DNA of 64,000 nucleotides from Gammaproteobacteria bacterium. GTDB lineage: Bacteria; Pseudomonadota; Gammaproteobacteria; S012-40. The number at the start of each line of letters is the position of its first letter. Position 1 is the stretch's first letter. Shown one piece after another: positions 56,014 to 61,834 of this stretch. Below the pieces are notes generated by a model that searched no databases, was not told the origin of the DNA, and was given only the letters and a program-made list of their open reading frames with translations. Where the stretch lies: contig JAOUMY010000007.1 of NCBI GenBank assembly GCA_029881255.1, positions 1 through 64,000 of the forward strand. The letters are read 5' to 3'. Made by a program: the position numbers and the translations under genes.

Positions 56014-56613
56014 TTAGCTGCCAAACGAAGTCTCGTCAATGGAAAAACTGGTGTAGCGTTGGGCCTTTAGCGTATCCGACCAGTAGCTCGGAGAAAGCCC
56101 TGCTTTATGCTTTAGATGGTTGAGAAATTCCTCTGGGCTTTCCAGGCTTTCCCATACCGATGGCAGGAAGGTGGCTCGGTGGTACCCGTCAGAAATAATC
56201 AAGCCATCTACACCGGGTCTCAATTGCGCTATCAAATCCTGCTCAGAACCAAAACTTATGGGCGTGGCCTCGGACAAAATTGATATCGACAACGTGGTGT
56301 CCGGGAGTTCCTTGCTTTGCATCGATGGAAAACGTGGGTCTTCAAATGCCGCGGCATAGGCGTTGTGGGCAACATCATTAACCAGTGGGCGTATCGCGCT
56401 CAGCGTGCCGATGCACCCGCGTAGCTCTCCTGTTTTTTTTAAGGTGACAAAAGTTGCACGTAGTTCTTGTAACGGAGCAGGATAATTTCCTGTCACTGGT
56501 TCAAGCGCCACCCCGACGCGTAGCCCATTTTCGATAGAGGCGCGAGCGATATCCAGCAAGATTTTTTGTTCTTCCTGGCTATAGGGCGTTTCAATAGAAG
56601 ACATAAGCACCAT
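56014..56613 (-). CDS. amrA: AmmeMemoRadiSam system protein A (AMMECR1 family)
   Basis: This 199-aa protein has the AMMECR1 hallmark 'LRGCIGTL' and flanking motifs 'FVTLKKTGE', 'DPRFPSM', 'GVDGLIISDGYHRATFLPSVWE' region and 'LNHLKHKAGL'. AMMECR1 function is unknown; in bacteria the gene co-occurs with a Memo homologue and a radical SAM gene. Its start overlaps the Memo gene's end by 23 bases. Confidence 0.93.
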   Translation of the reverse strand: MVLMSSIETPYSQEEQKILLDIARASIENGLRVGVALEPVTGNYPAPLQELRATFVTLKKTGELRGCIGTLSAIRPLVNDVAHNAYAAAFEDPRFPSMQSKELPDTTLSISILSEATPISFGSEQDLIAQLRPGVDGLIISDGYHRATFLPSVWESLESPEEFLNHLKHKAGLSPSYWSDTLKAQRYTSFSIDETSFGS

Positions 56614-57376
56614 ATCCGACGACGCGATCTTTGCTACCGGCGGTATCGCCAGAGTTGCGTAGGTCTACTGTCTTCACTTGCCAACGATGTTTTGCGGCCA
56701 GACATAACAGTCCTTTGATGGGATTTCGACCACACGCATCTTCGTCGCCAATATCATCACCGTCCAGTCGTTCGATAGCAGCGCTGGTTTCGGCATCCAT
56801 ACGCTGCGCGACAGTGTAGCTATGGTAGTGGCTGAGATCAGAACTGACGACAATCAAGGTGTCTTCTTCATTCCATAACCATTCCATCACTTCAGCGACT
56901 TCGTCGGCTCTACTATCCCCGACAACAATCGGCACAAGTGAAAACGTACCAAGTGTTTTTTGTAAAAAAGGTAGTTGTACCTCGAGACTGTGTTCTTGCG
57001 CGTGGGCTTGATTAAGTACGTGTACTTGCGGAAGGCTGGAGACAGATTCGACTTTTGTTCGATCCAGTGGCACTTCACCCAAAGGGGTATCGAAGTAGCT
57101 TGCGTCAGAAACTGCCAAGCCTGAAAAGGCGACGCGGTGAGATGGACCAAACAATGCAACCGTCTTGATCTTGTCCCTGAGTGTTTCAGTCAGTTTATAA
57201 ACGCTCGCTGCGATTTTGCCAGAATAAATATATCCGGCGTGGGGCGCAATTATCGCCTTGGGTAAAATTTGCTGTTGGCTTGCCGCGTTTAACATGTAAT
57301 CGACCATATCGCCCAGTTCGCGCGAGTTCTGTGGATAGAACATGCCCGCGACAGCTGCTTGCCGATGTATCACCAC
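56591..57376 (-). CDS. amrB: AmmeMemoRadiSam system protein B (Memo family)
   Basis: This 261-aa protein matches the Memo/COG1355 family: 'VAGMFYPQNSREL', 'KAIIAPHAGYIYSG', 'GPSHRV', 'EHSLEVQLPFLQ' and 'VVSSDLSHYHSY'. The conserved His residues resemble those of extradiol dioxygenase-like proteins and may bind metal. GTG start; GGAGG lies 3 bases from the GTG at 57376 and 6 from the next GTG at 57373, so the latter could be used. Divergent from the radical SAM gene 86 bases away. Confidence 0.93.
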   Translation of the reverse strand: MVIHRQAAVAGMFYPQNSRELGDMVDYMLNAASQQQILPKAIIAPHAGYIYSGKIAASVYKLTETLRDKIKTVALFGPSHRVAFSGLAVSDASYFDTPLGEVPLDRTKVESVSSLPQVHVLNQAHAQEHSLEVQLPFLQKTLGTFSLVPIVVGDSRADEVAEVMEWLWNEEDTLIVVSSDLSHYHSYTVAQRMDAETSAAIERLDGDDIGDEDACGRNPIKGLLCLAAKHRWQVKTVDLRNSGDTAGSKDRVVGYGAYVFY

Positions 57377-57462
57377 ACACCTCCAAGGCTATTAATTGAC
57401 GAGTATTGGGCTTATTATGATCTCAGTACCGAAGGATGTCGACCAACTTGGGAGTACGCGTA

Positions 57463-58554
57463 ATGGAAACCTTGGACGCCTCTACAGTCAAAACCCGCTA
57501 TTGGCATATGCTGGACGATGGGCGTGTGCAATGCGATCTTTGTCCACGTTACTGCAAGTTGCATGAGGGGCAGCACGGTCTGTGTTTTATCCGTGCCAAT
57601 ATTGAAAACGAATTAGTGCTTACCAGCTATGGGCGATCCAGCGGGTTTTGCATTGATCCGATCGAGAAAAAACCGCTAAACCACTTTTTACCCGGAACTT
57701 CTGTTTTTTCATTTGGTACCGCAGGGTGTAATCTGGCATGTAAGTTTTGTCAGAACTGGGATATCAGCAAGTCACGTGAAACGCGTACCCTGGCCGATGA
57801 TGCGATGCCGGACAAAATTGCCCGTGTCGCCGCACAGGAAGCTTGTCGCAGCGTTGCCTATACCTATAACGACCCGGTAATTTTTCATGAATACGCCATT
57901 GATGTTGCCCGGGCTTGTCAGGAACACCAGCTCAAATCGGTAGCGGTCACCGCAGGTTATATCTGTGATACGCCGCGCAAGGAATTTTTTTCCTACATGG
58001 ACGCCGCCAATGTGGACCTTAAAGCGTTCACCGATGATTTTTACTGGAAGGTCACTGGCAGTCACTTGCAAAACATTCTGGAAACACTGGTCTATATCAA
58101 ACACGAAACCAATGTGTGGCTGGAGACGACCACGCTACTCATCCCTGGCATGAACGACTCGGCAACGGAAATTGAAGAGATGACGAGTTGGGTGGTAAAA
58201 GCACTCGGGCCAGATGTACCCATGCATTTCAGTGCCTTTCATCCCTCGTGGAAAATGATGGACAAACCTGCTACGCCACCACAGACACTGGCACTCGCAC
58301 GAAAGATTGCGATGGACAACGGCGTGCGCTACGCCTATACCGGCAATGTACATGACAAGGCAGGGCAGAGCACGTATTGTCATCAATGCGGAGAAATATT
58401 AATTGGCCGTGACTGGTATGTACTAAGCGACTGGAATCTTGATGCACAGGGCAGGTGCATAAAATGTTCAACACCTTGTGCCGGTGTTTTCGAAGAACAG
58501 CCTGGCAACTGGGGAAGTCGCCGCAAACCGGTCAATATGCACAATCATATTTAG
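57463..58554 (+). CDS. amrS: AmmeMemoRadiSam system radical SAM enzyme
   Basis: From the ATG at 57463 (GGGAG 9 bases upstream) the protein is 363 aa. The radical SAM cluster motif is 'CNLACKFCQNW' (CxxxCxxC). N-terminal cysteines 'CDLCPRYC' and 'HGLCF', and a C-terminal 'CHQCGE' with 'CIKCSTPC', probably bind zinc or an extra Fe-S cluster. The enzyme resembles pyruvate-formate-lyase activase-like proteins. The reaction is not known. An upstream ATG at 57436 is less supported. Confidence 0.93.
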   Translation: METLDASTVKTRYWHMLDDGRVQCDLCPRYCKLHEGQHGLCFIRANIENELVLTSYGRSSGFCIDPIEKKPLNHFLPGTSVFSFGTAGCNLACKFCQNWDISKSRETRTLADDAMPDKIARVAAQEACRSVAYTYNDPVIFHEYAIDVARACQEHQLKSVAVTAGYICDTPRKEFFSYMDAANVDLKAFTDDFYWKVTGSHLQNILETLVYIKHETNVWLETTTLLIPGMNDSATEIEEMTSWVVKALGPDVPMHFSAFHPSWKMMDKPATPPQTLALARKIAMDNGVRYAYTGNVHDKAGQSTYCHQCGEILIGRDWYVLSDWNLDAQGRCIKCSTPCAGVFEEQPGNWGSRRKPVNMHNHI

Positions 58555-58589: not shown

Positions 58590-58985
58590 TTATGCGACGA
58601 GTACGTCGTTCACGAGTTGCATAGCTTCCTCTGTCCGCTCAGTAGAGATGGCCACTAAGCCGTAATCTTCATCGCGCTCCAGAAAGCGTATGCTGCGTAT
58701 ATTGATATTGGCATTCTTGAAGCGCGTAGAAATTTGTGCCAGCGCCCCCGGTTTGTTTTCAATGCGTATCACTATCGCATCCTCGCTCACTGCCTTGAGG
58801 TCAGGGAATTTTTGTAACTCGTAGAGCGCTCGATCGTAGTTATCGACATTCATAATAATAATGGCCGATTCGTTAAAGGTCTCGGCGTCGATATGATTGA
58901 TATTGATGCCAGCCTGCGCCAGGGTTTCGGAGATATCGGCCATAACGCCGGGGCGGTTGGGGGAGATGATGGTAATCTGCTTCAT
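58590..58985 (-). CDS. Tandem ACT-domain protein linked to histidine decarboxylase
   Basis: This 131-aa protein consists of two ACT modules, the first starting 'ITIISPNRPGVMADISETL' and the second 'IRIENKPGALAQISTRF'. ACT domains bind amino acids and regulate metabolic enzymes. Its ATG overlaps the decarboxylase stop by four bases, so it is co-translated. I infer a histidine- or amino-acid-sensing regulator of the decarboxylase, or a free sensor. No catalytic domain. Confidence 0.9.
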   Translation of the reverse strand: MKQITIISPNRPGVMADISETLAQAGININHIDAETFNESAIIIMNVDNYDRALYELQKFPDLKAVSEDAIVIRIENKPGALAQISTRFKNANINIRSIRFLERDEDYGLVAISTERTEEAMQLVNDVLVA

Positions 58986-60142
58986 GCAACATTCCCTTTC
59001 TTCATATCGTCAATTAAGTCTTGCAGTATGGCATTGATGTGCCGCTCTTCCACATGGGGCATGGTAATTATATGCGCATGATTACCGTGAACCGCAAGTT
59101 GCCATTTTTTCATGATTTGTGGGCCTGGACGCGGAAAAACTACAGTAATCGAATTATTATTTCGCCAGGCATCGATTCCCGCCTGTTTGAATTTAGTAAT
59201 CGCGTAATCGGCCGTTTTAAAACAGCGCAAAATGATTTTGCGAAATCCTTCCCAACCTTGTGCACGTATGGCATACCACAAAAATAGGGGAGTAATCGCA
59301 TTGCGTGAGCCAGTGAGCGTGGTATCCAGGGTGCCGATGTATTCAACCGAACGTGCGATGCGTTCGACATTGGCCTTTTTCGCAATGACAACACCGCAAG
59401 GGATCGGTGAACCTATCATTTTGTGACCGCTAATCGACACACTGTCGACACCGGACCGAAAATTCCACGGCTGTGGATCTTTGACAAAAGGCAAAATCAT
59501 GCCGCTTAGAGCCGCATCCGCATGTATATAGTAATCGCGAATGGCGAGGTCATTCAGTACGGCTTTAATTTTATCGAGATTGTCGACAGCACCCTTCATG
59601 GTTGTACCAATATTGGCGAATATGATCGGTGGTACGTCACGGTGTATACGCAAAGTTTCTTTCAAATCTTCGTAGTCGATCTCGCCATTGGGCAGGCTGC
59701 GTATCATAATGTTACGCGCATGCAGCAGTCGTAGAATTTTGGCTACACTGTAATGCGTATCTTCTGAATAATAGACGACACCATTGGGATGCAGTTCGCG
59801 CGCGAGATAAATACCGTACATATTGCCTTCGGTGCCGCCATTCGTCATGTAGCCCCAGAATCCGTTTTTGGGTGCTTCAGTATATTCACGAAAATATTCC
59901 AGCACCTCACACTCGATGTCGTGAGTATTCAGCCGAAAAGTTGTGTCTTCAAACGGATCACCAACGTTGTTGAGCGGATAAAACATAAATGGAAACAGGG
60001 GCGAGAAATCGAAGTCGCGCGTACACGGATAGCCTAGAAAGCGATCGGCTTCATATTCAAATTTTTCCAGAAGTTTGTCGAGTCTGGCGCGATCTTCCGC
60101 ACTAAGCATGTCTGGAGTATAAAGCGGGTGTTTGTTTATCAT
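58982..60142 (-). CDS. hdc: PLP-dependent histidine decarboxylase
   Basis: This 386-aa group II decarboxylase closely follows Gram-negative histidine decarboxylase: 'WGYMTNGGTEGNMYG', 'YYSEDTHYSVAKI', 'PNGEIDYEDL', 'PPIIFANIGTTMKGA', 'HADAALSGMILPF' and the PLP-Lys in 'SISGHKMIGSPIPCG'. It would convert histidine to histamine and CO2. No histidine/histamine antiporter is adjacent, so an acid-resistance or siderophore role cannot be assigned. Recognised from memory of the Morganella-type enzyme; a related amino-acid substrate is possible. Confidence 0.9.
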   Translation of the reverse strand: MINKHPLYTPDMLSAEDRARLDKLLEKFEYEADRFLGYPCTRDFDFSPLFPFMFYPLNNVGDPFEDTTFRLNTHDIECEVLEYFREYTEAPKNGFWGYMTNGGTEGNMYGIYLARELHPNGVVYYSEDTHYSVAKILRLLHARNIMIRSLPNGEIDYEDLKETLRIHRDVPPIIFANIGTTMKGAVDNLDKIKAVLNDLAIRDYYIHADAALSGMILPFVKDPQPWNFRSGVDSVSISGHKMIGSPIPCGVVIAKKANVERIARSVEYIGTLDTTLTGSRNAITPLFLWYAIRAQGWEGFRKIILRCFKTADYAITKFKQAGIDAWRNNNSITVVFPRPGPQIMKKWQLAVHGNHAHIITMPHVEERHINAILQDLIDDMKKGNVA

Positions 60143-60287
60143 AGAATTCCCTGTTGCTTACGCGCTCTGCAAGCCATTGTTCGGTATACTGCAAATACTT
60201 CGCCGGTAAAGGCTTTGTGCGCCGGTATATCTATTTGGAAAATTATCGACAGTTAAAGTTTCGTCTAAAGGGAGAAAGGAGTTCGTG

Positions 60288-60584
60288 ATGCATGTCACTC
60301 TAGTCCATGTTTCGGTTAAAGATGCCCATGTAAATGATTTTATTGAGGCATGTCGTTTGAATCACGAGGCATCTATCAAGGAGAACGGGAATCGTCGCTT
60401 TGATATTTTACAGTCTGCAGAAGAGCCTACAAAATTTGTGCTATATGAGGCTTATGTCGGCGAAGCAGAGGCTAAAGCTCACAAAGAAACTCAACATTAC
60501 CATGCCTGGCGTGAAACCGTCGCTGACTGGATGGCAGAGCCACGCAAAGGAGTTGCCTATCAAGGGGTATTTCCCAAACAATAG
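60288..60584 (+). CDS. Antibiotic biosynthesis monooxygenase (ABM)-fold protein
   Basis: This 98-aa protein is an LsrG/ABM-like ferredoxin fold: 'HVTLVHVSVKDAHVNDFIEA', 'NRRFDILQSAEEPTKFVLYE' and 'HYHAWRETVADWMAEPR'. Such proteins act as small cofactor-free monooxygenases or isomerases. AAAGGAG precedes ATG 60288 by 8 bases; a GTG one codon earlier is possible. It lies 65 bases before the iron-type dehydrogenase, probably co-transcribed. Confidence 0.88.
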   Translation: MHVTLVHVSVKDAHVNDFIEACRLNHEASIKENGNRRFDILQSAEEPTKFVLYEAYVGEAEAKAHKETQHYHAWRETVADWMAEPRKGVAYQGVFPKQ

Positions 60585-60649
60585 TCATTACCTTGTCGAT
60601 ACGCAAGGCGTCGTTTCAATCAATAGAAATGAACTGAAAAGGTTTTAGC

Positions 60650-61834
60650 ATGCAGGGTTTTTCGGTGGCCCGATTACCTCGGATAGAGTTTGGTCGTGGT
60701 GTTATAAGCAAGTTGCCTGATCTGGTCGCGTCATTTGGTTCGAATGCGCTAATCGTAACAGGTGCCAAATCGTTTACTGGTAGTGAGCACTGGGCAGCGT
60801 TGCAGACATCCTTGCAACGATTGCATATTCGTCATCAACACTGCGTGATCGATCAGGAGCCTTCTCCCCATCGCGTAGATGAAATCGTGGCAAGTTTTGC
60901 GCACGAAGACTTTTCGGTTGTTATCGGTATCGGTGGGGGGAGCGTTCTCGATGCGGCAAAAGCCATTGCTGGCTTGTTACGAGTACAGCACTCGGTAATG
61001 GAGTATCTCGAAGGCGTCGGCCCCGAGCGTCCATACGTGGGACCGGCTGTGCCTTTTATCGCCGTACCTACGACGGCAGGTACGGGTAGCGAAGCGACAA
61101 AGAATGCGGTACTGAGTGTGCAGGCACGTGATGGATTTAAAAAATCGTTTCGGCACGACAAGCTGGTTGCAGAATACGCGCTAATTGATCCCGCGCTACT
61201 CAGTCGTTGTCCACCACAACAGATAGCCGCCAACGGAATGGATGCTTTAACTCAACTCATAGAGTCCTATGTATCACTCAAAGCGAATGTGTTTACGGAT
61301 AGTCTGGCGCTGGAAGGGATACGTTTGGTACGTGATGGCTTGCTGGAATGGTATCGCGAAGGAGAGGTCGCGACGGCAGCACAAGACAACATGTCTTATG
61401 GCGCGTTGATATCTGGCATTACATTAGCACAGGTAGGTCTGGGCTCGGTGCATGGGCTTGCCTCACCGATGGGGGCATTTTATCCCATCCCGCATGGCGT
61501 GGTGTGCGGAACGCTGTTGGCACCAGCAACGCGCGTCAATATTGAGGCGATGAAACAACGGGAACCGGACAATCCCGCGCTGAAGAAATATCGCAAACTT
61601 GGCGCGACATTTTTTCAGACACATATACCGGACGCTGATAAGGCTTATAGTGGCCTGGTGCGAAAGCTTGAGCAATGGAGTGATGAACTCTGTTTGCCGC
61701 GATTGGCGCAATACGGGGTGACTGAGCAAGACCTCGATCATATTGTTGCAAATTCCCGAGGAAGCAGTATGAGGACGAATCCCATCGTATTGAGCGATGA
61801 TGAAATAAAAGATATTTTGCGTTCGCGTCTGTGA
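60650..61834 (+). CDS. Iron-type alcohol dehydrogenase
   Basis: This 394-aa protein has the Fe-ADH family NAD site 'VVIGIGGGSVLDAAKA', 'IAVPTTAGTGSEATKNAV', 'LIDPALLSRCP', and metal-region motifs 'NGMDALTQLIESYVS' and 'SVHGLASPMGAFYPIPHGVVC'. The usual second metal ligand His (DALTH) is Gln here, while the Asp and the two later His are kept. The substrate is unknown; the upstream ABM gene suggests a shared catabolic step (inference). It starts 65 bases after that gene. Confidence 0.92.
   Translation: MQGFSVARLPRIEFGRGVISKLPDLVASFGSNALIVTGAKSFTGSEHWAALQTSLQRLHIRHQHCVIDQEPSPHRVDEIVASFAHEDFSVVIGIGGGSVLDAAKAIAGLLRVQHSVMEYLEGVGPERPYVGPAVPFIAVPTTAGTGSEATKNAVLSVQARDGFKKSFRHDKLVAEYALIDPALLSRCPPQQIAANGMDALTQLIESYVSLKANVFTDSLALEGIRLVRDGLLEWYREGEVATAAQDNMSYGALISGITLAQVGLGSVHGLASPMGAFYPIPHGVVCGTLLAPATRVNIEAMKQREPDNPALKKYRKLGATFFQTHIPDADKAYSGLVRKLEQWSDELCLPRLAQYGVTEQDLDHIVANSRGSSMRTNPIVLSDDEIKDILRSRL

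Follow-up and report, generated by a model that had tools for sequence, protein, structure and literature searches.

ACT domains are widely known as the parts of biosynthetic enzymes that sense amino acids, and the small ACT subunit of acetohydroxyacid synthase is regulatory. Small proteins with two ACT domains include BT0572 (2f06) and its like, as well as those encoded beside phenylacetate-CoA-ligase-like genes. The closest described decarboxylases are the histidine decarboxylase of Photobacterium phosphoreum (7eru/7erv), with annotated plasmid copies from Klebsiella, E. coli and Vibrio echinoideorum, and the plant enzymes AtSerDC (8jg7) and CsAlaDC (8jij); 7erv/7eru and 8jij/8jg7 were also the best PDB matches of the enzyme described here. 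With histidine decarboxylase this enzyme shares the fold and the PLP site, and one NCBIfam model, which AtSerDC also passes, scores both above its cut-off; but it is paired with an ACT protein, falls on a different branch of the tree and lacks six residues of the histidine type. With AtSerDC and CsAlaDC it shares the GDPF, KWQLA and MP motifs and the catalytic-loop Tyr, whereas Tyr111/Phe106 of these enzymes is replaced mostly by Cys or Val, and an ACT partner is found in place of their zinc-finger-holding C-terminal extension.

A decarboxylase gene overlapping a tandem ACT gene

The window, that is, the whole stretch of 64,000 nucleotides analysed, contains the following features:

56014-56613, minus strand: AMMECR1 (NCBIfam TIGR04335/04336/04337 set)
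56591-57376, minus strand: Memo (same NCBIfam set)
57436-58554, plus strand: radical SAM protein (same NCBIfam set)
58590-58985, minus strand: tandem ACT protein, 131 aa, ATG start, proposed regulatory partner (frame, Pfam, model)
58982-58985, minus strand: ATGA common to the ACT start codon and the decarboxylase stop codon (sequence)
58993-58999, minus strand: putative Shine-Dalgarno-like AAAGGGA within the decarboxylase 3' end, before the ACT start (read from sequence)
58982-60142, minus strand: group II PLP decarboxylase, 386 aa, ATG start (reading frame, Pfam PF00282, NCBIfam PRK02769)
59714-59716, minus strand: codon of decarboxylase residue 143 (Arg), candidate docking residue, which tracks ACT gene presence
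60023-60025, minus strand: codon of decarboxylase Cys40; in alignments this residue matches Tyr111 of AtSerDC, which sets Ser/Ala specificity

The original prediction had placed both frames correctly and had recognized that the decarboxylase stop overlaps the ACT start. Across this junction the minus strand reads ...AAAGGGAATGTTGCATGAAG..., with 7 nt separating the end of AAAGGGA from the ACT start. The original prediction's remark that no antiporter or siderophore genes are adjacent was also borne out: on one side of the pair lies an AmmeMemoRadiSam set, and on the other are genes for an ABM/LsrG-like protein and an Fe-containing alcohol dehydrogenase. The AmmeMemoRadiSam set (56014-58554) is complete and adjoins the pair, its radical SAM gene being convergent with the ACT gene; the NCBIfam models involved are typed as hypothetical equivalogs. 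The other two genes (60285-61834) are divergent from the decarboxylase.

The window enzyme is a group II PLP decarboxylase by Pfam (Pyridoxal_deC, 82.8 bits, above the cut-off) and fold comparison, and provides the single PF00282 match in the whole 4.97-Mb genome. Residues H130, D209, H240 and K241 and the catalytic-loop Tyr268 are invariant in a 29-row decarboxylase alignment, the roles of PLP-site and catalytic residues being those given in PMC11407765.

The partner contains two ACT domains by both profile and fold: Pfam ACT matched two stretches (64.2 bits), and the predicted model (mean pLDDT 90.5) consists of two beta-alpha-beta-beta-alpha-beta-like units, the second of which best keeps the [DN]xPG loop (P79, G80). 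The top fold match was 2f06 (Z 11.5), to which the protein is 21-22% identical. The ACT subunit of acetohydroxyacid synthase was also a fold match. It is a probable analogue in function, not a proposed member of the same group: both are small ACT proteins associated with an enzyme that handles amino acids, but the partner here is a PLP decarboxylase, and the NCBIfam models for that small subunit score far below their cut-offs. The window's genome contains one match to the ACT protein at E ≤ 0.001.

Conservation and evolution of the pair

A scan of named genomes yielded 117 decarboxylase relatives, of which the best 80 were kept, so that the sample leans to close relatives. The pair is seen well beyond the window, an ACT gene of the same family lying directly downstream of the decarboxylase in 37 of these best 80 of 117. 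The 37 loci span at least ten phyla, including Gemmatimonadota, Planctomycetota, Verrucomicrobiota, Omnitrophota, Nitrospinota, Acidobacteriota, Chloroflexota, Pseudomonadota, Thermodesulfobacteriota and Myxococcota. Among the 39 non-Bacteroidota loci of the best 80, the ACT gene is downstream at 37 of the 38 that could be evaluated; the contig of L074 ends inside the decarboxylase, and L082 has no ACT gene. Among the 41 Bacteroidota loci of the same best 80 of 117, 39 of them evaluable with at least 600 nt downstream, no ACT gene was found.

With genomes beyond the named ones added, all 50 unfused pairs examined are co-directional and in the same order, with a median gap of −4 nt (range −14 to 173, the upper value belonging to L034, whose ACT frame is split) and an overlap of exactly 4 bases in 26; these counts leave out the window copies (L001 and L002), as do all others, and include twice, as do the residue counts, the identical L010 and L037, apparently one genome. 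Because strand and order are kept throughout, with so short a gap, the pairing is more than chance. In L029, L034 and L102, all on draft contigs, one of the two genes is interrupted by frame breaks or a stop, perhaps through sequencing errors. In L004 (genome G078, of the same class as the window's genome), a locus known from a single draft contig, one 611-aa frame runs from the decarboxylase through a Pro-rich linker into the two ACT domains, with no Met at the point where the ACT protein would begin. The genetic traits looked for in an ACT regulatory subunit, a gene linked to that of its enzyme or fused to it, are present in the pairs and in L004.

Within the class of the window's genome, decarboxylase (E ≤ 1e-60) and ACT family (E ≤ 1e-15) were each detected in 15 of 369 genomes, and in the 13 genomes with both the genes are always adjacent or fused. 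The two ACT-only matches (E 7e-21 and 6e-18, the other full-length matches being at 2.2e-39 or better) are assigned to another family, given their weaker scores and phenylacetate-CoA-ligase-like partner. In L122 (1450-3188) and L124 (119-1929), read by eye, a tandem ACT protein follows such a gene. As judged from sequence, ACT proteins in that position are a different tandem ACT family, from which the window protein differs in partner enzyme and in forming a separate score group over the 369 genomes. Accordingly, no member of the close ACT family was found without the decarboxylase in the 369 genomes of the class. The reverse, decarboxylase without ACT, was found in two (L105, 47% identity; L106, 42%). 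In the 398 genomes examined of the phylum, the ACT family was found solely in the window's genome and in G713, where the pair is again joined by an ATGA overlap. Pairwise identities of decarboxylase and ACT protein correlate (r 0.78 over 49 rows, a value reached in 0 of 2000 shuffles), but shared descent alone would also give such a correlation.

The conserved co-directional unit, the start/stop overlap and the natural fusion make it very likely that the ACT protein is a dedicated partner, and probably regulator, of the decarboxylase. In this respect the original prediction of a dedicated ACT sensor is supported; its choice of histidine as the amino acid is not (see below).

In a 95-row decarboxylase tree, the ACT-bearing enzymes surround the ACT-less Bacteroidota on starred branches, according to which the ACT label must have changed three times or more; the tree was rooted at its midpoint for drawing only, and the branch uniting 87 rows has support of 88/94. 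L006 and L074 (contig ends), L011 (31% identity) and L029 (broken frame) were left out of the tree and the residue counts. Because ACT-bearing enzymes lie around them, the Bacteroidota would most simply have lost the ACT gene. Vibrio campbellii (L093) holds another ACT-less copy amid ACT-bearing rows. A divergent Lrp/AsnC gene, its family named for one of the loci, lies within about 175 nt of the decarboxylase at 16 of the 40 Bacteroidota loci with enough upstream sequence (L047, L057, L068, L070, L075, L076, L077, L078, L079, L080, L084, L085, L086, L087, L088 and L091), as if a transcription regulator had taken the place of the ACT protein; L066 carries ACT as well as Lrp.

Decarboxylase residue 143, chosen after the fact from eight lineage-differing columns, is R, Q or K in all 51 ACT-paired rows and P, S or G in all 41 Bacteroidota; L093, L082 and L106 have P there, and L105 has E. 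The histidine-type enzyme 7erv has Lys at this position.

Substrate of the decarboxylase

Most likely, a single neutral amino acid is both the substrate and the ACT ligand, or the two belong to one pathway; we lean weakly towards a hydrophobic amino acid (Leu, Val, Phe or Met type) over serine. Four observations underlie this lean. The position of AtSerDC Tyr111 is occupied mostly by Cys or Val; according to PMC11407765, mutants show that this Tyr sets Ser versus Ala specificity, and the Y111V, Y111A, Y111L and Y111W variants lose serine activity; plant SDC-like enzymes act on Phe, Met, Leu and Trp, as stated in PMC4177580; and the neighbours of L081 comprise a Glu/Leu/Phe/Val dehydrogenase, a POR-domain protein and an SNF transporter. 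Among the neighbourhoods read (L027 in part, L029 left out), only that of L081 has the look of amino-acid catabolism; L036 has a class III aminotransferase downstream. All-against-all clustering of the frames at 91 loci revealed, among the matches listed, no gene other than ACT shared across phyla, so that the substrate reading draws on a single neighbourhood and a small number of residues. The clusters that came next, with 46 and 41 loci, look antisense to or overlapping with the decarboxylase, as seen from one example each. Glycine-betaine-type ABC genes near L042 were considered as a shared trait and rejected, L030 having another ABC type. A literature search for valine decarboxylase gave nothing useful among the matches listed.

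Among the alternatives, a bacterial serine decarboxylase forming ethanolamine, with a serine-sensing ACT protein, survives best, and we consider it unlikely. It would agree with the three motifs shared with the plant serine decarboxylase and with the top NCBIfam model for the ACT protein, phosphoglycerate dehydrogenase (40.9 bits, far under the cut-off of 404), whose fold matches to the ACT protein include serine-bound structures. However, the Tyr111 position is Cys in the window and Cys, Val, Ser, Thr or Ala in ACT-paired rows, and Val or Ala there is among the changes that abolish serine activity in AtSerDC. The window enzyme also lacks the plant-type C-terminal extension, whose zinc finger comprises three Cys and one His (PMC11407765); it ends 8 residues past the aligned part (378/386), with no Cys or His there. 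Ethanolamine ammonia-lyase EutB was found in 0 of 17 pair-bearing genomes and phosphatidylserine decarboxylase in all 17, the latter leaving no need of ethanolamine for lipids; these genomes were searched without a matched pair-free set and include G006, whose contig ends inside the decarboxylase and whose ACT gene is assumed.

A true histidine decarboxylase, with an ACT partner sensing histidine or histamine, as the original prediction had it, appears less likely again. The equivalog model PRK02769 gives the window enzyme 505.6 bits, above its cut-off of 305, and the nearest solved structure is the histidine decarboxylase 7erv (TM 0.91, about 50% identity), with which it has the HADAALSGM motif in common. 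Overall similarity to 7erv (408 bits) exceeds that to the plant serine decarboxylase (317 bits), which counts against a non-histidine substrate. However, PRK02769 scores 597 on the Photobacterium histidine decarboxylase, 607 on the Klebsiella copy and 459 on the Arabidopsis serine decarboxylase; as AtSerDC passes too, the label 'histidine decarboxylase' does not decide the substrate. Moreover, Glu40, Trp63, Phe109, Ser270, Lys/Gln274 and His347, common to four histidine-type sequences, are all absent from the window enzyme. Pro63, Tyr109, Gly270 and Thr274 occupy four of these positions in 94 of 94 family rows, where the histidine type has Trp, Phe, Ser and Lys/Gln; the outlying L095, L096, L097, L105 and L106 were set aside before this count. 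Position 40 is mostly Cys or Val in the family, Glu in the four histidine-type sequences and Tyr or Phe in the plant serine and alanine enzymes. The histidine-type set is small, comprising the solved enzyme 7erv and L092, L094 and L107 (the plasmid copies being annotated only, and L092 and L094 close kin), and the link of its residues to specificity is a candidate one. The closest histidine-type sequences, 7erv, L092 and L094, form a separate branch of the tree, whose rows do not include L107. The locus also lacks the antiporter or siderophore context of the histidine reading; according to PMC8465708, clusters of a PLP-dependent decarboxylase with an antiporter are found only in Proteobacteria. 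The substrate of the window enzyme is probably not histidine, and the name given in the original prediction is not borne out for the window enzyme or the 94-row family.

The Rhizobium plasmid 'histidine decarboxylase' L095 (2977-4131) has GYPY, as in the plant serine decarboxylase, with which it groups on a long branch (100/93); a fatty acid desaturase gene lies next to it.

Proposed regulation by the ACT protein

A further alternative concerns the partner: the ACT protein could be merely co-expressed and act on another enzyme or regulator. The decarboxylase does exist without it in Bacteroidota and some others, so that neither folding nor catalysis as such depends on ACT. Nevertheless, we regard this alternative as quite improbable in view of the natural fusion in L004, the retention of ACT as the one kept neighbour over ten phyla, and the lack of a close ACT relative apart from the decarboxylase in the 369 class genomes. 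Least probable by far is that the enzyme decarboxylates aspartate to provide the beta-alanine of coenzyme A: PanD, searched in the same 17 pair-bearing genomes without a matched pair-free set, was not found in 4, but was found in 13, the window's included.

As a whole, the evidence is best explained by a dedicated ACT-regulated decarboxylase with a neutral, probably non-histidine substrate, whose ACT gene was most simply lost in Bacteroidota; we hold this reading to be moderately probable. On this explanation, the overlapping genes would yield matched amounts of decarboxylase and ACT protein, and the latter would dock on the enzyme. The free amino acid may then bind to the ACT domains, of which the second, carrying the [DN]xPG loop, is the better conserved, and the ligand-bound ACT protein would change the rate of decarboxylation. 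Sequence does not reveal the direction of control; the simplest guess is that an ample supply of the amino acid switches the enzyme on.

Among the matches listed from the open-access literature, we found no paper on an ACT domain joined to a PLP amino-acid decarboxylase of this kind. Searches of the literature found no biochemistry of a member of this decarboxylase family and, for 2F06/BT0572, only unrelated papers among the matches listed. These results suggest that what is new is a known sensor domain and a known enzyme superfamily in a combination not found described.

Our results suggest that the pair is a decarboxylase of old standing that carries its own regulator and probably acts on an amino acid other than histidine. 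More tentatively, and as a possibility that we would not yet call probable, it may represent an ancient, unrecognised class of ACT-controlled decarboxylases, hidden under the histidine decarboxylase name, acting on a neutral, probably hydrophobic, amino acid and spread over at least ten phyla, whose control was rewired: by a separate allosteric ACT subunit in most lineages, by fusion once, and by Lrp/AsnC in many Bacteroidota. If this is true, many proteins named 'histidine decarboxylase' would be misnamed, which bears on predicting histamine formation, and nature would offer, in the pair, its fused form and the Bacteroidota enzymes that lack ACT, a set on which to study how a small ACT subunit switches a decarboxylase.
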